DNA from: Hexactinellida sp. DTS-2022 | Taxonomy: Eukaryota; Porifera; Hexactinellida | DNA length: 64,000 nt | Reading direction: 5' to 3' | Assembly: GCA_028753945.1 (NCBI GenBank) | Contig: JAPNXP010000016.1 | Coordinates: 1,302,001 to 1,366,000 of the forward strand | In this document: piece by piece, positions 48,092 to 63,900 of the stretch | Layout: each line of letters starts with the position of its first letter | Numbering within the stretch: the stretch's first letter is position 1 | Notes under the pieces: model-generated | The model's database searches: none | The model's input: only the letters and a program-made list of their open reading frames with translations | Told to the model about the DNA's origin: nothing | Translations under genes and position numbers: made by a program

Positions 48092-48793
48092 CTGGAATGA
48101 TAATACTTAACTCTAGGAGAAATGCTTAATTTGTTCTGAAATAATTATATTTTCCAATAAATGCCTAATGTAACCAGGTTTTGTTATTATGAACATTCAA
48201 GGGACCAAAAATTGTGTTCACAATAGAGATACTTCATAATTACATTAAGGGAACTAAACTTAATACAAACCCTAAGTAATTTGTCAAATTGGGACCATAG
48301 GGCTTATTCATAATAAAAAAACCTAATATTAGCAGGGAAAATTGTTTACAGTAAGCAGACCTGTGTTAATACAAATAATTGAATACTTTGCGCGCAATCA
48401 AAAAGAATTTTGTTCTAATAGAGCTTGTAAAGATACAACAGTGACAAGTGATATCAGACTGAGTTTGCTGAAACAGTAGCAAAGTTAGTCCAAACAATAA
48501 GGTTTTGGTGGCTAATATGGAAAAAATAAATTTGTTACAATCCCCTATTTACTTGGTATTATTCGAAGTTAAGTTCCCATTTATCGGTAGGTGTGTGTAG
48601 TGTAAAATTCAGAGATAAAAGGATACTCAAATAATTAAAAAAATAGAACCGAATCAAGAAAGCCTCGAAAATCGATAAAAACACTAAATAATAATATAAA
48701 AATTAGCTATAGCAGTAGTTTAAACTAAGAATCACAAGAATATAGAAGTAGAGTATAAATGGGGATTAGATTAAGTAGTTTTAACAGTGCCCT
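48092..48793. promoter_or_regulatory. 702-bp interval between cadherin genes A and B
   Basis: Must hold the 3' end of gene A and the promoter or 5' leader of gene B, since both read leftward. AT-rich. No clear TATA box and no AATAAA on the minus strand was found by eye. No transposon is evident, unlike nearly every long intron nearby. Confidence 0.55.
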
Positions 48794-48901
48794 AGATTGC
48801 AGATATAGAACTATCATCAAAGTAATTATCGTCGTCCATAGACACATCAAGAATCTCAGCCAGCAGAGAACCACCACCGGCACTGCTCGTCCTCTCTGAG
48901 C
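48794..48901 (-). CDS. Gene A last exon: acidic C-terminus and stop
   Basis: Encodes SERTSSAGGGSLLAEILD, then VSMDDDNYFDDSSISAI and a TAG at 48794-48796. The final S-A-I fits a class I PDZ ligand. Enters in phase 1, matching the previous exon. Confidence 0.85.
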
Positions 48902-51900
48902 CTAATAATGAAAATAAATAAAAGCTAATGTAAAAAGATACTAAAACAAATACCTACCTTTAGCCAATACTAGTCTCTAATTATAAAAGTTAAAGGCTTT
49001 ATAATATAAAAATGAATCGTGTTTGGGTCAAATTTATTTTGTCAGAATAGTATAATTGTGATTATAATTAGCAGTGGATATCAATTTTGCCCTAACATAG
49101 TGTTTACCACGTATTAAATATTATGGTATACAGGGATGGTAAAAAGGAGTTCAGATAAAATGGCTCGTCTACAAAAAGATTAAATATTTTCTATTGGATA
49201 TACAGAGTTGTTAAATACAAGAGGGACGCATCATTCTGTTTACATGGTCGTGCAGCAAGTGGGTTCATGTTATCAATAAATTACAAAAACTGTTGGTGAC
49301 AGGATAATATAGACCTAAATACTAAGCGCGAAATAAATATAAATAAGAGTGGTTATTGACATGAGAATCAAGTACAAACTCACCACTTATGAACTCGTCT
49401 TCTGGTATCTCATCTACAAATAGATCCATCTTAAGTTCCTGAGATTCATATGCTAGCTCTTCTGTGATGGGTAGAGGTTCAGGTACAATCTCGGCTTGAT
49501 TAAGTACCATGCCCCGTTGTGGGCCTGTTAGTACATCAAGCCCTTCCATCCCTCCGTACACAAAATCGTCTGAACGTTTGATGCTACGCTTACCAATATA
49601 CCTAGTGTTGAGTAATAAAATGATATTTCTGGAAAGACCAGATGAGTATTCATGGTGTGACAAGATGTGATCATAACCACACCTACTGTCTCTGTGCTAT
49701 CCGGAGAACAAATGTTCCGGAAATGTAAACCCTGGCAAATGTACTATTTAATATTTAATATACTTCACATCAAAAAGATTGAATAAATATTCAATATACA
49801 ATGGGGTCACTGGGTAATGGGGTCAATTTTCACGAACAGAATCATGCCAATAGAAGACAAATATACTTTTATTTTCATGTTATTCAAGTCCCAATTTATT
49901 TGGTTAATATTTGGTTCATTCATTTTGAAATGGATACTCCACTAATATTGTATTTAATCATGTTTTAAGCCTAAGCGAAGAATAAAGCCCATTTTAGTAT
50001 GCTCTCAATAGAGTAGTGAACGGGTAATCAATATTGAATATGTGAAACCAAGAAGGCGAAATTTTGAAACCATCTGACCTCACCCAGCTCACTTAGATAA
50101 GTTGCAGGATTATCAATTGATAAAATAGCGTGCATCAGTTCCTGGGGAGAAACAGGTTCACCTTGAAAGAAGAATATTTTCTAATTTATTACTCAGGAAG
50201 AGGAGATTCAAATCGTCTTCTAATATTTTGTGCTCCCTAAATGTTATCTTACTTGGAGAATCTCAAGAGTTGTTGTGCGGATAGTATATTATGATAAGTT
50301 CATGTGTCTATGCATTGTTGACGAACAAAAGTAAGCTAACCCTTTAGTAAATCATGGTTAATTTTGAGATAGTTTATAAGTGCATTAAATCTACATTTCT
50401 GGGCAACGTATCTGGAAGTGTTTAATTTAGCTCAAAGCATACTCGGGAAATCCAATCATTGATTTTATCAATCAATATATTGAAGATATCAGTTTTGCTC
50501 TCACTTAAACTTTTGAGTTTACTTCTAAAATCTAAAATTACACCTTTGCCGGCAGCATGTCTTTTGGAGGCACTATACTTTGGTCGTTGGTTGATTAATA
50601 GTGCCTCCAAAGAAAATGCTGTAAAATAACTGATTGAAAAAACTGATGGTATACAAATAAAAGATTGGATGCATGAATATACTCTCGACCAATAAATTAC
50701 AGCCTCTGTTAGGCATTCTATAAAATAAAAAAATAAAAATAAAACGATAGGCATTCATTAAAAGAAAGCGTTCAACCACAAAATTCGATATTCCAAACAA
50801 TCTTGCTATATTTTAAGTTTCCCGTAGATTTTGGCTTATAACACAAAATTTGGCCTAACTAAGTCAATTTTTATCCGATTTCTCCCTGTTTCGACAAACA
50901 CTCATTATTTTCAAAGCTCTATCCAATAAAAAAATAACCTCTAACAAAACACGAAAATATCTAGGTGAGGTAAGATAGTGAAATTGTACCGTTTTGTCAC
51001 CTTTTGGGAAGGAAATAAAAAGTTCAGCCTGTGATATACGCTAAATGGTAGTGCTTCTTCAAGCTTCTTCAAATGTATGTGATTATTTAGTTGGGCTGAC
51101 CCGTAGGTTATGTTTGGAGTTTATAGATCCTCTGAGTTTAGCTCCATTTCTAAACTGCCGCCTAATACCTTTGATAAAAATCCAGGGGTTTGCCCTATTG
51201 GTATAGGATTATTAGGAGGATAATCGGGAAATCTATTATAATGTTAGTAAGACTATAAATAATACAATCTGTCGGTACCCTCAGCTTAGTGCAGGGAAAG
51301 AGGGTGGTTTGTAGGCAGCATGCCATGCAATGAGAGAAATCTTTAACGAAGATGAATGTCAAGGTGTGCTAATACTTGATGCCTCTAACGTTTTAATAGT
51401 CTCAAAATAGACTCTCAATCGTTAATCACAGTTGTATTTAATTACTTGTTTCCTATCTACCCTAGTATGCTATATACGCTAATAAGTAATAATTAATAAT
51501 ATATTAGTAAGAGAATTTTACCTCCCAGCCAGGCCTTCATCTAGACCTAAGAGATCCGCGCACCCTAGGCAATGTTTATTTTACAATCGCGCACCCAAAT
51601 AAACCAAAAATAGCATATTTACCAAAAAAAAGACCAAATTTAGTATTAAAAATACTCTGGGTGCGCACCCAATTAATTTCAATTTCACGCACCCTTCCAG
51701 CATTTTCCTTAAAATCACGCAACCCTGGGTGCGCGCCGCGCACCCAGATGAAGGCCTGCTCCCAACCAAGTTTGATAAAAAATCATGATTTTCGTTGTTT
51801 TTTTAATTTAAAAAATCTGATTTTTTTGTATTTAAATCAAACAACCCTGCAAATTACTCAGTGTATAATGGATTCCAATCGGGTATCAGTTGAACTTGTA

Positions 51901-54900
51901 CAAATCACAGTTTCAGATAATTTATTTGATATTAACAGCTGGAACAATCAATACAAGAAGCGATATTTATAAAGTGGGAATCTGGGGAAGCAATTATGCA
52001 TTATAAGGAAAGCATTGGCTGGAGCAAGCGTTAAATGACTATCGTTTGCGGTTCTGGAATTAGAGAAGCAAGGATCTATTTAAGGGATCGCATATAATTT
52101 AAATTTCTAAACTAATACAAATTTAAATAATTCTTAAATATTAATTGTTACATCATAAATATTAACCTTAATTATTCATTTAATGATTATATTGAGTTGT
52201 TTAGACCAGTCACGAAACATTCGGTCCGTGTTGTTTTGGTCCGGCCGGACTAAATATTCCAGACGTTTCTGGTCCGTGTTGTTTTTGGTCCGGCCGGACT
52301 AAATATTTCAGTCCGGGTATACTACGTTATTATTTTGTTGAATTTGTTCAATAGGGTAATATATTATAAACGATGAGAGCAATATTTCATTTAGAGTAAT
52401 CTAGAATGTGTATTCGTAATGTCAAGATTTAGCTTATTGGTAGTGACCGCATGACCGTCGACGTCCGTCGTGCCAATAGTATACCAATTAGTCTCGAGGG
52501 AAGAAGATTGAGTGAAACCACATTTTTAAAAATAGTTGCAATGCGTGTTCCCCAAAGGGACCAACAAGAGAAGTACACTAATGGCTAAAATCAATGTTGT
52601 AGTTAAAGTAACTCTATATTTATCTGTTTAAGAAAATGCATAATTATTAGCAATATTGTTCTCATCAAATAGAAATTAGAATCTATTACCTATTGAACAC
52701 AAAAATATACACTCGGACCAAAAACGTATGAAATATTTAGTCCGGGTTAAAATTTGGTACGGCCGAACCAAAAACAACACGGACCGAATATTTCGTGACA
52801 GACCAATTATCCATAATACGAAATATCAACTATACGAAATTTCATCAGAATAAAAGTCCGTTATATGAAATTGATGAGAGACAAAATGTCGTAGACGAAA
52901 TGTCCGTAGGCGAAGTGCCCGATTAACAGTATATTTATATCAAGTGCTAAGTATTAACTACAGTCAACTCCGTTTATCAGGTCACTTTAGGCCCCAATTA
53001 AACGCAAATCCAATAATGATATCTATTTTTATATACGTGTACTACTGGAATATGTATCGGAACTGTTTGACAGACTTGTTCCGAAGTGCAAAATGATTCC
53101 AGTTGGAACCATTTTGTCATAAATTGGTCATTTAACAATTTAGTTCCGGGCTAGATTTTAGAGTGTAAATTGTACAAGGAGTCTTTGAGATAGTAGAGGC
53201 TCTTTATATTACTGCAACACAACAACGTAACACAGTGAATCAGTTAAAAGAACAAGTCGTCATACTTAGCATAAAATATATATGTAATTAACTAGCAAGA
53301 ACATTTATGGTCAGAATACATTGGACATCCGCAATCTCGAATCCTCAGAGGAACTAAAAAAATTGTTTTGTTTATCAAACCAGTTGTTCTTAGCTATTAA
53401 CGATACACTTCATGTGATTATGAAAACATTGGGGATGAGAACTTTTTCCGAAAGCCATACTTATATTATACTCACAAGTTAGTGCCCTTCAATTATACTG
53501 TCATTTAGTCTCCATACTCTACTATACTGTATTATAGTGTGTATGATAATAACCTTGATTTTATTTGGTTAAACGAAGAATCAACTCTTTAACGTTATTC
53601 TGATATAATATTGTTAATAAATTTAAAGTGGTTAATAGTTTTATATCCTTTTACGTAGTATTGTCACCATTTATCGCTGTTAGAATAAGAGTAACTCATC
53701 GATTTTGAGGTCAGAGCTTTAAAACCAATGAATTGGTATACAGTTATATTAATGCGGTACAAATTAACAGTTTGGGGAGTATTATTGTAGTGTACTGTAA
53801 TCGGTTTAAATTTCGCAAAATGGCATAGGCCTTGAATAAAGAAAACAATATACTCAGAAAAACAATCAAAAATAAAAGCATTTGGTTAATAAAAGTTCAA
53901 GGAAGGAAGGAAGTGTACTCTTTTCATTGAAAGGTGATCAATCTAATTCTTATAGATTATAAAATAAATCAGTAATTCTATTTTTAAAATATGAAATGTA
54001 TAACTCGTGATCAGGCATAGACTGGACCATTGGGTCAAACGGGTTACTATATTCACTCAATTATCGGAAGAACCAAAAAATAATACGGCTTGACCCAATT
54101 CAGAACTAATCCGATTATCAATATTGTGAAAGGTAATTAACTTTCACTCATCAATACAATACAATAAATTATTTATCTAAAAATAAATAATAATAAATAA
54201 TAACCGGGTCATGACTCGTATATAAAAGTACAAGCATAGTATAAATAAATTTACCAATTGTTATAACAAAAATTTAACAAACCTTTGGTATAGAGCGAGT
54301 ACGTTCGCAAGACAACCACAAAGGATGATAACAGCACAAAAAATTATAATAAGATACATCTGTATATTGTTAGATGGAGGTTGTAAGACAGGATTTACAG
54401 TTTCTGCAAGTGGAGAGACTGAAAGGATCTTGCCCTCGCAAATATTAGAGAGATCGCTAAAACTATCATCGATCTATTTCATAATATTAGTAATTACCAA
54501 AGGTAGTATAACTGACACAAACAAACTACTTAGGTATAACGATTATTAATACGAATTTTGCTAATAACTGATACATAAAGCATAGTAGAAATAAACTAAG
54601 CCACCAAAAGTATTAGATATGATATCGGTGAGAAAATTTTAGACTTGTTAGTACTTAATAGTATACTATATACAGTCGACTCAGCTTAATAGAGTCACCT
54701 CGGGACCAGGCTACTTTGACCCGATTAAGCGGAGAATCCATTTACAGAATATATTTTAAGCCAAACGGTCATACCGTCCTATAAATCCTGTGAATTTTGA
54801 CCTGATTAAGCGGAGAAATATATTAACCGGTGGCTCTATTAAGCGGAGTCGAGAAATAACCGTTCGTAATAACCGTGTTCGTACTAACGAGGTTCTATTA

Positions 54901-57900
54901 TAAATAGTAATGACTAAAAATAAAGATTTGTGAAATTAGAGTGTAAATATCTAACCTTTCTAAGTAAGTCTGTTTGCTGTACAAGAGATGGGACTCCACC
55001 AATTGTTTGAATAGCGTAAAAGAATACACCAGTAAGATCTGAGAATACTGTGGTGCCAACAACATGTTCTTTCACTTCGTAAATTAATATCTATTTAAAT
55101 AAAATATTTATTAATACAAAATAAATATTTACAATAATTAGGAGAAGTTAATTCGTTGAAAAAATTTAAGAATTTAAAAAGCGATTTTCCATATGTACTG
55201 CTATCATTTGATTGTCAACTACGTAATAAAAAATACTACATTTAAGAGTTAAACACAAGTAGACCCCACCTAAAATACGTCTAGACTCTAGAGTCATATA
55301 TTTAACTGTGTAATGTGTACTAATTGTTTCCAAAGTAACTTCCCAAGTTAAGAAGGTGCAGACTATCGTGAAATGTTTAATAATATGACGAATATTCAAA
55401 ATTCGGAAAGAAAGATTCAGAATAATCTTACCTGGAAAGAGGTGATTTCAACAAGTTTAGCAACAAGCGCATCCAAACAAAGAAGAGTCTTCGCAACATT
55501 ATCATCAACAACAATGAGCAACAAATAGTCGTTATCCACAATACTAATTACAAAGGATTCCACAGTGCTCCTACTAGTTACAGTATCTTGATCTGAAGCA
55601 GTGACTTCAAAGCTTGTGACCTCGCCAGCTCTCACAGTAAATACAGCATTTGTAATCAATACTCCAGTAGTGCTATCTATTTTGAAGTTATCTTCACTAG
55701 CTAGAGAATATCTAAGGGAAATAACCGATAAAATACAATACTTGTAAATACATGCACAAAAGTTGTATTTCGTCGGGTTATAGTTTAACAAATTCGTGGA
55801 AATTTGTACAGATATGAAATAATCATTTATTTTCAAATAAGTGGTAGTATCCATTGATCGGGTAGATAATTGTGGTTGTGGATGCCAATTATTTTGAAAA
55901 TATATTGAATTGTATTGTAAACCCAAAAACTTGCAACTTATACTGTGCAAACATAATAATTCATAAGACTTACTGCACTTCTCCTGCATCACTGAGATCA
56001 GCATCAGTAGCCTGAATAGTAACAACATCGGAACCGAAAGAAGCTGAAGATGAAACTGCTAAATTGAGTTGAGTATTTACGAAAACAGGATTGTTGTCGT
56101 TAATATCAGTTACAGTTAGTTGAATGATAGATGAGCCAAACAACTTGCATTCAGTTCCCACCAATCGAGCCTGATTGGTATTTAGAGGATTGCAGAAAGA
56201 ACCGCGAGGATCTCCAGATTCCTAATAAAATTGATAAGAATGTTAAAATATCCTCACATTGTTACACGACTTAATACTCATTGTTCACAAATGTATTAAA
56301 ATAAAAATATAATACAGTCGACTCCGCTTAATAGAGCCACCGGTTAATTGGTTTATCCGCTTAATGGGGTTAAAATTTCACAGGATTTATAAGTCGTAAT
56401 TTATTTTCGGTTAATAGATTCCTCCGCTTAATTGGGTCAAAGCACCTGGTCCCGAGGTGACTCTATTAAGCGGAGTCGACTGTATACGTATCACCAAAAT
56501 ATAAACGTTGTAAATTCAATAGATTCTCGCAACACGGGATACTTCGGTGATTCATATTATTCCCAGCTGTGAAGGACTGCCCCGGTTTGCGAATGTTGAA
56601 TTGTAGGACAATAGTAATGTATATAAGTAATGCCACATTTTTTGTTGTTGTTTGTTTGTCTGTTTGTTGGTTGGGTGGTTGGTTACTGATTACCATACTG
56701 ATTACCATGTACAACAATTTTAGAGTGTCCTAGAGTTGTGGATTGTGATAAAGGGAACGGGCCCACGGGATTTACGCCTATGCACTTAACAACAAATAGC
56801 ATTTTATTACTCTATAAATTTCAGGGTTGTCGTGGGAAGTACTATTTCCATTCCCATAATTTTCCGTACAATCCCACATAATCTATTTTATTAAAACTGG
56901 ACTGTATGTTGATTTGACAGGATTGTATTAAAGAAATAGGAAAATAGTACGTGTATTTAGAAACCGTATTTATATTTGAGATTAAACAAACGTCCAAATG
57001 TTATAATAGGTAAACAGGTATGCTGAACACCAATTTTGAAATTTCGCATTCCTAAATTTCTAGTATGAATAATTACTGTTTTGTTTACCGAATATTTCGT
57101 GACAGGAAAACAAATGAATAAAATTCAAAATTGACTCCAAATCCTGATTTCGAAATTGGAATATATAAATAACTTAGAAATTACAAATGTAATCAAAATG
57201 TTAAAACCTAAACTCACTGTATTAATCACTTCCACGTATAGTGTATAGTTATCCCTAGTCTCGCGATCCAATCCAATATTGAGAAAGCAATCACCTCCTG
57301 ACGTAACATTGAAGTCTGGATAGGAAAAAGGAGAATTCGCGCCCAGTCCTATTATAGAAACTTTATACTCAGAAGTCGAGTCTCCATCAGAGTAAGATAA
57401 TGTGGTTAAGAGTCTAGACACTCCGTTCTGAGCTAGCGGATCAATGTCTTCGGGAAAAGAAATTAAGTATAATTCGCTAGAAAACATAGGAGGAATATCA
57501 TTCTCGTCGCTTAAAGTGATAGTTAGATTTGTTGTGGTAAAAAGAGCAGGAACTCCATCATCAGTAACCACTGCTTCAGCTGAATAAGTGTCCTGTGACT
57601 CTCTGTCCAGAGGTCCATTAACCTCCAGTTTTCCATCCAAATTAATGCGAAATGAACGATCAAACTCAGCAGAGTTTGCGGAGGCGCTCGAGAATGAGAC
57701 ACGGCCATTTCCTAAGTTAGGATCGTCATCATCGTCAGCAGTCAGAATAAGGACTTGAAAGCCAACTTGCGATAATTCAGATATTTGCACTGTTAAATCT
57801 GCATTGGTAAAGTAAGGAGTTTGGTCATTAACATCAGTGATTGTTATTTGAATTTGAGCACTGCCCTCTAAGACAGGGGAAGAGTTAGGATTAACAGCTC

Positions 57901-60900
57901 GGACGGTGAGTGTTATCGTATTAGATATCTCGCGATCGAAAGCAGAAAGGGCTAGGATTGTACCTGTCACGGAATCGACAGAGAAGTCTGTGACTGAAGT
58001 AAAGAAGAATGATATCTCTGAATTTTTAGAATTAGGAATATCTGCATCTGATGCAGTAACGTTCAGTAGGAATGTGCCAGGTGGAGAGTTCTCAGGTAGA
58101 TCTACGAGGTAGCTGGTCTGTGCGAAGACTGGTGGATGCTCGTTAATATCTATAATAGTAACGACTAATGTGTCAGTATCGGTAAGAGGTGGAAACGCAC
58201 TGTCAGAGGCTTGAATTAATATGTCATAACGAATGATCTCTTCTGCATCCAAGTTATCATTAACAGATAAAGCGCCAGAATTTGGGTCAATGGAAAAGTC
58301 TCCAAAATGTCCTCCAAGAATAGAATATGTAAGTTTAGAATTATCGCCTTCATCTATGTCAGTTGCGTCAACATCAAACACAACAGTACCCATAGTAGTG
58401 TTCTCACTAATCTGGATAGTGAATATAGTGGTATCTATAATAGGTGGGTTGTCATTGACATCGATGACTGTAATATTAACAGTAGCATTTGATGACAAAA
58501 CTGGAGCACCATTGTCACGTCCCAGAATTTGTATCTGATAGAAACTAACGGTTTCTCTATCAAGCTGTTCCTGTAGGATGATGTCTCCAGTGGTCAAAGA
58601 GACAGAGAACTTAGGCTCATCAACGATCTCAAAAAATTCAATAACTCCATTCTGTCCCTCATCTTGATCGGTCGCAATAACCTTTCCAACAATGAATAAC
58701 ACATTTCTATCCTCTAATATGGTAAAACTATAAACAGACTGGCTAAATACTGGAGCATGATCATTCGCATCAGTAATTGTAATAGTCACTCCTACATCTG
58801 TGCACATAGATATATTTCCCATATCACAAGCTGTGACTACAAGGTTGTATAACGATTGGGTTTCTCTATCCAAATTGGCAGTGTTTACACTGATACTGCC
58901 TGTAGTATTATCTATCGCAAAATGGCTCGCATTTATACCAGAACTAATAGAATAGACTAACTCGGCATTGGTTGTAGAATCATCATCCGTCGCATCAACT
59001 AATATAACAAAATTACCATCAGGAGTACTCTCTTGAATTGACACTTCATAAGGCGGCATAAACACAGGAGCGTGGTTATTCGCATCGATTAAAGTGATTG
59101 ATAGCGTAGAGGTATTAGAGAGTGGAGACGCTCCCATATCTGTCGCTCTAATCACTAGTGAATAAAATGGGACAGTATTGAAATCAAGAGGTTTGACTGT
59201 AGTGATTTGTCCAGTAATAGATTCAATGCTGAACACGGTATCAATGTTACCACTGGAGATTTCAAAAGATATCGCTGCGTTACTATCTATATCTAAATCA
59301 TTAGCCAGCACCTTGAACACTTCAAAACCACCGAATTCAGTCTCATTTACTAGTATCGAGAAAGGGAGGTTTATAAAATATGGAATACGGTCATTTATAT
59401 CTAAAATTTCTATATCAGCAATAAGCGTGTTACTCAGAAGAGCGGGAATTCCTCTGTCTGTAATAATCAAAACAAGCGTGTACATATCATCACTCTCTCT
59501 GTTCAACACATCATTTAAAACAACAATAAAGGCAGTTGAAGCACTTGCTGATACTATACCAAAGGCGTTATCATCATTTCCACTCAAAATACTGAAAAAG
59601 AAATCTCCGTTTATTCCAGAGTCTTTGTCTGTTCCACAAATCTGTCCTATCGTTGTGGCGACAGGGGAATGCTCCGCTATAGAAAACTTATAATCAAGTG
59701 TTTGACAGAAAGCTGGCGGGTTATCGTTGGTGTCTGATATCTCAATGTGAAGCGAGGTTATGCTGGACTTAGTTAGATCGCCTGTTTCAAATGCGCTAAT
59801 AGTTAATTCGAAAATAGTGATATTCAAACTGAGAAGAGATTTAATAGTAAATACATCACCAGTTGTTTCATTGATGGAAAACAGTCCATAGAGATTCCCG
59901 CCTACAATTTCATAATTAATTACGCCGTTAGTATCATTGTCTGTAGCAGTTAGTCGAATTAAGGTTGTGCCAATAGTTGCGTTCTCAAGAATTCCAACGG
60001 TAAAAAAGGGCGAATCGAATATAGGAACATTATCATTTTCATCTAACACTGATATATTAAGACCAATTGAACTACTTAGAGGAGGAGTGCCCAGATCAGT
60101 GACAATAAGATCGAATGTGTACTCACTCTCACCATTGAGACCAGTGGAGTCTACATCTAGAGACTCGATCAGTCGTATTTCACCTGTATTCGAATCGATA
60201 GAGAATATTGTAGAAACAGGAGAGAGAGAATAGACAACCTCTCCCCCTAGCCCTAGGTCAGGGTCTGTAGCCACTGGAGACAGAATAATGGTCGTTATAC
60301 GTGTTGTCTCCTGAATGTTGGTTCTAAAAGAGGTGATGCCAGGAAAAGACGGGGCCACATCATTCAAGTCATTAATTGTGATTACAACGTTAGCTGTAGA
60401 TGTCAATCGATTTGGTTCAAATATGGCATTATCGCGAACTACTACCTCAAAGGTGTATCTGTCTGTAGTTTCGCGATCAAGTGCTCCACTCACAGTGATA
60501 TCGCCAGAAGTACTATCGATTGTAAACGGCAACGAACCACCAGCAATAGGGTCTTGGTAAGCAAAGAACAACAGTGAATTCTGATTAATATCCAAGTCGG
60601 AAGCATCTAGATCCACGACTAAAACAGAAACACTATTTTCATCAACATCACTGTTATAGAGAGATTGTGAAAAAATAGGTTCGTTGTCGTTAGAATCTAG
60701 CACTGTTATGGTCACAGTAGCTGTTCCACTCCTAAATGGCGAACCACTATCAAATGCAGCTATTATCACCTGATAGCTATCAGTGACTTCCCTGTCGAGA
60801 GTTCTAATTAGTGTAACCACTCCAGTCTTGCGATCAACTTCGAACTTGCCTTCTGAGCCAGCGAACAGAGAATATGAGATCTCCATGTTTGGCCCAGCGT

Positions 60901-63900
60901 CCAAGTCAGTAGCAGATACAGTAGTAATTAAAGTGAACATAGTTAAGTTTTCAAATACAGTGGCAGAATAGGAAAGAGGGCTGAAGATCGGAGAATTGTC
61001 ATTCTCATCTTCAACAGTAATGACAAGAGTAACATTGGAGGTCTGGGGTGGAGAACCAGTGTCAATAGCGAAAATAACTAAGTTGTAGCTCGCTACAGAT
61101 TCGCGATCAAGAGCTACTTGCAGGAATATGTTCCGTGTACTGGTTATATCAAAGACAGAGTTATCGTCCAGGCTCAGAGAGAATATTGAATTAAACCCTT
61201 GATCATCATCAGTCACTGTAATAGGAGTATTCTAGAAAAGAAAGGATCATTTCCCAAAGGATTTATACTAAGTTAACAATTTTGTAATAACAATTTATTA
61301 CACATTTGATAGTTTCGCATAACAGTATATATATAGGTAAACCTCCCAAAGCGGCACCCATCGGGAGAATGATTTTGTGCCGCTACTCGGAGGTGCAGCT
61401 TTGGGAGGTTTACCTGTATACTACGTATATATATATATACTATATATAATATTCACCAGAGTAACAGTGCTTGCAGTTAGTGCACTCTCAGAAATGGATG
61501 CGGTGAATACAGTAGGAGAGAATGAAGGAGCATTATCATTTGCATCCAATACAGTTATTGTAACGGTGGATGTTCCCTGTCGAACTGGAGTCCCATTATC
61601 CTGCGCGAGTATGATCAGTTCATAGCTGGCTTGCGTCTCTCTGTCTATGAGATCTAGAGCTACTTCTATATCGCTTTGGGTTAGAGTAACCTGTGTGGAA
61701 TAAGCATGTGAGATGCAAGTCTAGATTAACAGCAATTTGACATGCTTCACTGCGTGTGGGCAATAGCAACCAGTCGTTAAACAACTCAGCATTGCAACAC
61801 GTCAAAGCTTTTAAAAACTATTTTTATTTATCATGTTTTAAGGTTATAAACTGTAATTTACAGACGGGAAAATTAATACTGATGCCAACACTCTCAAAAC
61901 AAGATTAGCAGCCCAGAGATTATTGGTCAATATAGGGTAACTAAATTCTAAATATTATGAACCTTTGTAGTCAGAATATTTCTCGGCAGTTTGCACATCT
62001 ATATTATCAAAACTCGATTGTTGTGTGTGTGTGTGTTTGTGTGTTTGTTCCAAGATTGAAACCAAATACAGTAGAACCTCGTTAGACGAACACCCAGGGA
62101 ACGTCAAAATCCGTTTGCCTTATCCGGAATTCGTATTAACCAACAACTTTGTATTGAAAAGGCTTAGAAGGGGACTGAAATAGTCTTCGTGTTAATTGGA
62201 ATTTCGTATTAACCGTGTTCGTACTAACGAGGTTCAGCTGTAGTTCAGCGGTTAGCCAAATACTGTTTGCCAAATAGTGTTGATATTCGGTTGGTTACCG
62301 AATATCAGTATTTGGTATTTGGTATTTGGTTGGGATACGAATATGATATATTGATCAATCATAAAAATGTTATTCGGTTGACCAAATATATTTAGTTCTT
62401 CATATTGCGGGATATAGATTGTTCTAAGTATTATTAACAAATATATTACAAAAACTATCTCTAGTTGTTGAGAAAATTCTAATCCCTGTGTGTGCTAATC
62501 TCTTATCTACTAATTGGTCAGCCACATATCAAGGTTTCAACCTAAGGTTATTTGTTTGTTCGGATTCTATTAAGTGATAGGGGGATATAAAACGTAATTA
62601 CAGTTGAGATAGAGACACATTGTTTTAATAGGTAAACAACTAGTATGTTGAAAACGAATTTCACATCTACAAATTTCTACTCTAAATATCTATTGTTGTT
62701 GTTTACAAAAATAATTGACTTATTAATGAAATTTCGGGACGAACCTAGACGTTAACTTTTAACCTGAATAATTGGTAAACAAGTATGCAGATATCGAATA
62801 ATAAATTTTATATTTATAATATGATTGTTTATTGTTGTTGTATACAAGAAATAGGAAACCGATTAATGGAAATTCGAATAAACCTAGAGGCTAACTTTCG
62901 AAGGTTATAATAGGGAAATTCACTATGGTATTATTGCCGATTTGCAAAGAAGAATATGTTTGTAATTACAGTACATAATGGATATAGTGATATTGGATAT
63001 ATTGGATATATTGGATATATTGGATATAGTGATAATTTTGCCGCTTTAGGTGTCCCCCCGAGCAAATCCCATACACACAACAAATTTTATTGGTTATGAT
63101 GATATCATTATGGATATAGTGATAATTTGTGCACAGATTATACAAGAATATTGGATTTTGACCTTCCTTGTCTCACATAATTTCATATTTTACAGTATAA
63201 ATATCGTTACCAGTTGAATTCGATAAGGAATTTGATCATACTTATGAGAATATAATTATTGACAATGTATACATATTAGATGCAGTAATACAGTGGATAT
63301 AGTGATAATTTGGCCAAAAATCCCATGTCCCCACCATTAACACTATATTCATTATGTACTGTAGATTGAATTAACTGAGAAAAACGAGACCGCGAACAGT
63401 AAATGATTCGTCGCGAAGTGAGACCAGGGGTTCGTATCTATTATATACAACGTTTATTTCAATTATAGTAATATGGCAGCTGAATGCAATATACAAACTC
63501 AAGAACTTAACCTCGGATTCAATCTTAGTTAGTTCTGCCATTTTACAAACACATGTAATATACATAAGCTCACATTAACAATCCTGAAATGATCATCAGG
63601 ATCGCCTCCGATGATACTTAAAGTGACCCTTCCATTCTCCCCATCGTCAAGATCACTGGTTGTCACGGACGTAACTGAGGTCCCCACAGCGGAATTCTCT
63701 AGAATAGAAGCAGATATACTCGTAGCTGCAAATTCAGGATTGTGATCGTTGATATCTGTAACTTCAATAGTTAGTGTTGCCTAACAATAGATAGAATGGT
63801 TGAACGAACTATAAACAAGTAATTATTCTTAGCTTCGTAAGATAAGACAGTCAACATACAGGAACCGTGTTTGTTCCGTCTGTAACTTCGACTAGGACTT

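Follow-up and report, generated by a model that had tools for sequence, protein, structure and literature searches.

Does the membrane-proximal part of a long sponge cadherin belong to the domain family found at the base of the hair-cell tip-link cadherins CDH23 and PCDH15? The question is raised by gene A, which lies on the minus strand of a 64,000-nucleotide stretch of DNA from Hexactinellida sp. DTS-2022 (positions 1302001-1366000 of contig C8, hereafter the window), analysed as part of a genome of 112.4 Mb, whose 18 contigs are of chromosome size. Nuclear-receptor ligand domains are few there (four matches on two contigs), which together with the size of the genome fits a sponge and makes the early-branching animal of the initial annotation plausible; a search with the Hedgehog signal family gave no match anywhere and is uninformative in this respect. 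Its product is read as a chain of extracellular cadherin (EC) repeats followed by about 100 non-cadherin residues encoded over three exons, a transmembrane helix and a tail. PCDH24, PCDH15 and CDH23 are each described with a membrane-adjacent domain at this place (PMC8691648), and its presence in a sponge would mean that the domain existed before sponges diverged from the animals possessing CDH23 and PCDH15. No report of it in sponges was found in the open-access literature, as judged from titles and the beginnings of abstracts among the matches listed, so that a paper of this kind may exist.

The segment between the last cadherin repeat and the membrane

The exons of gene A (..57218, 56221-55974, 55711-55432, 55090-54956 and 54473-54283) have GT/AG borders throughout and form a single open frame. 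In the spliced model the segment follows the last EC repeat, precedes the single membrane helix and reads YLLLIVVDDNVAKTLLCLDALVAKLVEITSFQ / ILIYEVKEHVVGTTVFSDLTGVFFYAIQTIGGVPSLVQQTDLLRK / IDDSFSDLSNICEGKILSVSP, after which there come a linker of 17 residues and the transmembrane stretch MYLIIIFCAVIILCGCLANVLALY. Its aligned core elements are strand 1 (YLLLIVVD), helix 1 (NVAKTLLCLDALVAKLVEI), strand 2 (FQILIYEV), the next core strand (GVFFYAIQT), helix 2 (SLVQQTDLLRKIDD) and the last strand (KILSVSP). The initial annotation, made from the letters of the sequence, had described here a non-cadherin stretch of about 90 residues immediately before the helix; its place and all the elements quoted for it were retained, but the length is closer to 100 residues and the last strand was added by the alignment. 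Taken alone, the segment matched no Pfam family at E<=10 and no chain in the PDB, and a hidden Markov model (HMM) of EC repeats built from gene A's own repeats did not list it at E<=10.

That the segment is real coding sequence under selection follows from comparison with the paralogue A', located on the same chromosome (C8, about 1219.5-1199.2 kb). A' repeats the three-exon layout through the segment with identical junctions and has the same cytoplasmic exon. The segment is 53% identical between the two genes. Over the 147 codons of segment and helix the proportion of synonymous differences (pS) reached 0.80, i.e. saturation, and that of nonsynonymous ones (pN) was 0.31. Since the exon cuts are kept and pN is well below pS, a pseudogene or a false gene model was rejected.

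Relatives in the same genome and the profile link to CDH23 and PCDH15

Relatives of the segment were sought in 26 regions, most of them at the 3' ends of cadherin matches, picked from 150 scored matches (there are at least 150 genome-wide); 19 stretches of 18 open frames were inspected for the domain. The same kind of domain was registered in four of these 18 frames: at C14:405 kb, at C6:4.49 Mb (a near-copy of the C14 form), at C18:1.077 Mb and at C3:156.6 kb. Many of the other frames end before any membrane helix and therefore give no evidence of its absence. A fifth relative was found at C1:10.593 Mb (hereafter C1), and a sixth at C1:10.44 Mb is another near-copy of the C14 form, in which the reading frame departs from the similarity in mid-domain. 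Together with gene A and A' there are eight loci, representing six distinct sequences. In C14, C6, C18 and C1 the domain and the helix lie within one reading frame, so that the domain can be seen there without any assumption about splicing.

Two side observations concern duplicated cadherins. One domain-bearing cadherin occurs in three closely similar versions, L018, L019 and L035, each on a contig of its own (C14, C6 and C1:10.44 Mb). The large cadherin-bearing frames L023 and L038 (C5:1079000-1088500 and C5:268000-276500), both on one contig, share about 90% of 2,051 aligned residues and represent a duplication.

The profile built of six domains from this genome, gene A and A' included, retrieved CDH23 as the first chain in the PDB (8tri_A, E 6.5e-14, positions 1-104 of 107), then PCDH15 (6c10_A, E 1.5e-4, positions 1-95) and next four further PCDH15 chains; among the 12 sequences at E<=10 the best unrelated protein had E 0.0083 over 36 positions. 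As a control for circularity, profiles were also built without gene A and A', which were then scored together with 15,000 shuffled sequences and 987 open frames, those of the members themselves among them. With CDH23, PCDH15, C18, C3, C14 and C1 in the profile, gene A obtained 27.1 bits (E 2.9e-6) and A' 31.5, the best of 5,000 shuffles of each reaching 11.5 and 13.0. The profile made of the four sponge relatives only gave gene A 27.8 bits (best shuffle 14.7), and recognised CDH23 with 57.8 and PCDH15 with 33.7 bits. In hhalign the pair of gene A and A' aligned to the six other members with a probability of 93.4 over 102 columns. The vertebrate side is connected to the relatives directly as well: the CDH23 domain alone, used to search the 112-Mb genome, found C18 (E 7.8e-8) and C3 (E 1.7e-4), and the Pfam family PF23206 (PCDH15_12th, cut-off 27) matched C14 with 27.8 bits, comparable to 28.3 for CDH23 itself, with C3 (18.9) and C1 (17.9) below the cut-off. 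The resemblance to the membrane-adjacent domain, which had initially been noticed as a pattern, is thus borne out at the level of sequence profiles.

Several results of the same searches weigh against this assignment. Without C1 the profile value of gene A drops to 17.9 bits (best shuffle 15.3), with 26.7 (12.5) for A'. Profiles of CDH23 and PCDH15 only gave 3.0 bits for gene A and 7.6 for A', under the best shuffles (8.6 and 11.1), and those of CDH23 only gave 1.0 and 6.3, again under the best shuffles (9.9 and 12.3); the sensitivity of the vertebrate pair is, however, limited, as C1 itself scores 13.8 bits there against 38.2 on a profile built without it. The hhalign probability of gene A and A' against the vertebrate pair was 9.6. 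PF23206 lists neither gene A nor A' (nor C18), and in the genome-wide search it listed only C14 (26.7 bits, or 27.1 with its neighbours) and C3 (17.2), with one archaeon giving a control match below the cut-off. The tree of last EC repeat and domain groups only gene A with A' and leaves the rest unresolved. A search with juxtamembrane regions, proposed in the initial annotation, succeeds for CDH23 and PCDH15 by way of the relatives; the CDH23 and PCDH15 domains alone miss gene A. Since gene A is found by profiles containing relatives and not by vertebrate domains alone, its kinship to CDH23 and PCDH15 runs through these relatives.

The EC repeat preceding the domain agrees with this kinship. 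In an alignment inspected by eye, the last EC lacks the DxNDN linker in all seven proteins compared (gene A, C1, C14, C18, C3, CDH23 and PCDH15). The LDRE motif is also absent from these seven repeats, a weak argument, as 6 of the 14 repeats of gene A, the last one included, have no strict DR[ED]. When the last EC of C18 was taken together with its domain, CDH23 and PCDH15 came ahead of every other cadherin among the 12 PDB matches listed. Gene A differs in this respect, as its last ECs match EC repeats in general (see below). Based on this data one can consider the segment very probably a true, though divergent, member of the CDH23/PCDH15 membrane-adjacent domain family, forming the base of a cadherin that is long and crosses the membrane once. 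As the alignment covers nearly the whole domain, gene A would also inherit the ferredoxin-like core of the PCDH15 domain.

Likeness to the known cadherins is in each case partial. With CDH23 gene A shares the place of the domain (MAD28 in CDH23), which follows the last EC and precedes the membrane helix, as well as the last EC without DxNDN and a long EC chain; the C-terminus of CDH23 is a class-I PDZ ligand, a feature like that of gene A. The two domains have, however, no detectable pairwise similarity, and the tail of gene A is of the YESQEL type, a motif that to our knowledge is lacking in CDH23. With PCDH15 (MAD12, or EL domain) it shares the domain family, PF23206 being named after this protein, and the position. 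The PCDH15 domain is described as having a ferredoxin-like fold, in which a hairpin lies between core strands 2 and 3, and was crystallised as a dimer (PMC6092121); according to the same source PCDH15 has 11 EC repeats and forms complexes with LHFPL5. By the alignment, a five-residue insert after helix 1 of PCDH15 is missing in gene A. At least 13 EC matches were counted in one exon of gene A, which is too many for a PCDH15 orthologue, and this identity was ruled out.

Cytoplasmic tails and the possible role of the protein

The tails of gene A, C3, C18, C14 and C1 contain a common motif of the YESQEL/YETKEL/YESQEF type, followed by hydrophobic and acidic residues. All five aligned tails terminate in [IL]-S-x-I, four of them independently (4/4), as the end of gene A had been found with a filter, and the tail of the C6 near-copy has the same kind of end. 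Class-I PDZ ligands follow the pattern S/T-x-hydrophobic, which these ends fit. Three tails scanned against Pfam gave no family, and one scanned against the PDB gave no related chain (best E 0.39). Other families also had matches in the genome: three over the cut-off for TMC, two for LHFPL-type proteins, and for USH1C_N one over and one below it, the USH1C_N model having also matched below cut-off in two bacterial controls. These matches do not demonstrate a tip-link complex.

In the organisation proposed here, a chain of EC repeats closes with an EC lacking the DxNDN linker; the probably ferredoxin-like domain follows and is joined by a short linker to the only membrane helix, beyond which the tail is acidic and has an end resembling a PDZ ligand. 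By analogy with PCDH15, the domain may pair two adjacent chains next to the membrane and pass tension from the ectodomain to the membrane helix. The end of the tail might then bind a PDZ scaffold such as harmonin, itself linked to actin, and the likeliest site of such a link would be between microvilli, for instance in the choanocyte collar. At least five divergent cadherins of this genome combine the CDH23/PCDH15-type base with a YESQEL-type tail and the [IL]-S-x-I end. That they connect the microvilli of the choanocyte collar, together with a harmonin scaffold, and represent the ancestral stock of tip-link and brush-border cadherins, is proposed here as a tentative idea, to which we give a rather low probability.

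A more prosaic possibility, which we consider plausible though somewhat short of an even chance, is that the domain is homologous while the protein serves in general tissue adhesion or in recognition and has nothing to do with microvilli or tip links. It is favoured by the presence of several relatives with near-copies (C14, C6 and C1:10.44 Mb) and of additional cadherin exons next to gene A on contig C8, as well as by the strong divergence of the relatives from one another. Known users of the domain, i.e. CDH23, PCDH15 and PCDH24, link on the contrary microvilli or stereocilia, as described in PMC8691648 and PMC4942974, and the PDZ-ligand pattern at the end of all five aligned tails, four of them independent, also speaks against this possibility. 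PCDH24 (CDHR2), described with nine EC repeats, a membrane-adjacent domain (MAD10) and a transmembrane domain, links microvilli of the gut (PMC8691648); it is comparable to gene A by this description of domain order, not by domain sequence. As the family thus also serves a cadherin of the gut brush border, the domain by itself is no proof of a tip link. Choanocyte-enriched cadherins of Ephydatia are likewise sponge cadherins without assigned relatives, similar to gene A by description, and their domain architecture is said to offer few clues to affinity with intermicrovillar-link cadherins (PMC4942974). The combination of a CDH23/PCDH15-type base with a PDZ-ligand tail is a clue of this kind: it yields a short list of sponge genes that may encode intermicrovillar-link cadherins, and the small family of gene A provides concrete candidates for how links of the tip-link type began.

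The last EC repeats and the origin of the base

It may also be supposed that the segment belongs to a wider class of Fat/Celsr-like cadherin base domains and is simply what long cadherins ancestrally carried at their base, without any particular connection to CDH23 and PCDH15. We regard this as unlikely, though to be taken seriously. The last EC of gene A weakly matches Cadherin_CELSR2_9th (PF23592; 22.7 bits at a cut-off of 36.8, E 1.1e-4), and in the PDB the last ECs match EC repeats in general, with CELSR1 first (best 60 of 145). Celsr carries a base domain after its ninth EC, and together with the weak Celsr-type match this leaves room for a common older cadherin base, as does the lack of resolution in the domain tree. 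This genome also encodes a Fat/Celsr-like protein, L028 (C16:94000-102300), in which non-EC sequence separates the last EC from EGF-like modules. This sequence, however, gave no CDH23 or PCDH15 chain in the PDB and no Pfam family, and was unlisted at E<=1000 by five domain profiles that list gene A. Between the domain of gene A and its membrane helix there are only 17 residues, with neither the EGF nor the LamG modules that mark Celsr and Fat at this place. The comparison with Fat and Celsr is based on L028 of this genome and on EC repeats of Celsr.

Convergence on a common alpha/beta plan without shared descent would explain the non-significant direct comparison of gene A with the vertebrate domains, but it is improbable, as the relatives bridge this gap with significant sequence-level scores and the position, the linker of the last EC and the single membrane helix all agree. 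A degenerate EC repeat stripped of its calcium motifs would suit the position in the chain and the length of about 100 residues, yet this explanation was rejected as having hardly any probability: an ordinary cadherin repeat as a better match, named at the outset as what would contradict the assignment, appeared neither in Pfam nor with the EC HMM of the same protein, and the profile match to the CDH23/PCDH15 domain spans nearly the whole segment.

Organization of gene A and other features of the window

Coordinates of the parts of gene A are collected in Table 1. The least certain part of the model is exon G, which was located with a filter for acidic ends resembling PDZ ligands and had no convincing match in the 4.6 kb of downstream A' sequence examined. 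The genome-wide cadherin search registered further EC matches upstream of the window. CDH23 has 27 EC repeats, and gene A may or may not be its orthologue.

Table 1. Parts of gene A in the window (positions are those of the window).
Feature	Position	Strand	Basis
Large exon, 13 EC-repeat profile matches (first partial)	57218..61231, 5' border provisional	-	Open frame; EC HMM from own repeats; Pfam Cadherin on last repeats
Exon B: end of one EC repeat and start of the last EC repeat	55974..56221	-	Splice borders, frame
Exon C, first part: remainder of the last EC repeat, then no DxNDN linker	55528..55711	-	Gene model, alignment
Membrane-adjacent domain, part 1 (probable): strand 1 and helix 1 (YLLLIVVDD..SFQ)	55432..55527	-	Gene model, profile matches
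Membrane-adjacent domain, part 2 (probable; exon D): strand 2, loop, following strand and beginning of helix 2	54956..55090	-	Gene model, profile matches; same exon in A'
Membrane-adjacent domain, part 3 (probable; beginning of exon E): rest of helix 2, last strand	54411..54473	-	Gene model, profile matches
Transmembrane helix MYLIIIFCAVIILCGCLANVLALY, after 17-residue linker	54288..54359	-	Read from sequence
Cytoplasmic exon F, YESQELKMDLF motif, 64% identical to A'	49384..49601	-	Comparison with A'
Probable last exon G, ends SSISAI-stop, class-I PDZ-ligand-like; less certain	48792..48901	-	Filter for such ends

Downstream of the probable last exon another run of EC-repeat exons occupies positions 12632-47847 of the minus strand. 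Perhaps it is the 5' part of A', in which case the two cadherin genes would stand in tandem on C8. Introns of gene A (56318-56486 and 54669-54852) contain two oppositely oriented copies of one element resembling a miniature inverted-repeat transposable element (MITE), which are 80% identical over 186 columns and have near-perfect inverted ends of about 24-30 bases.

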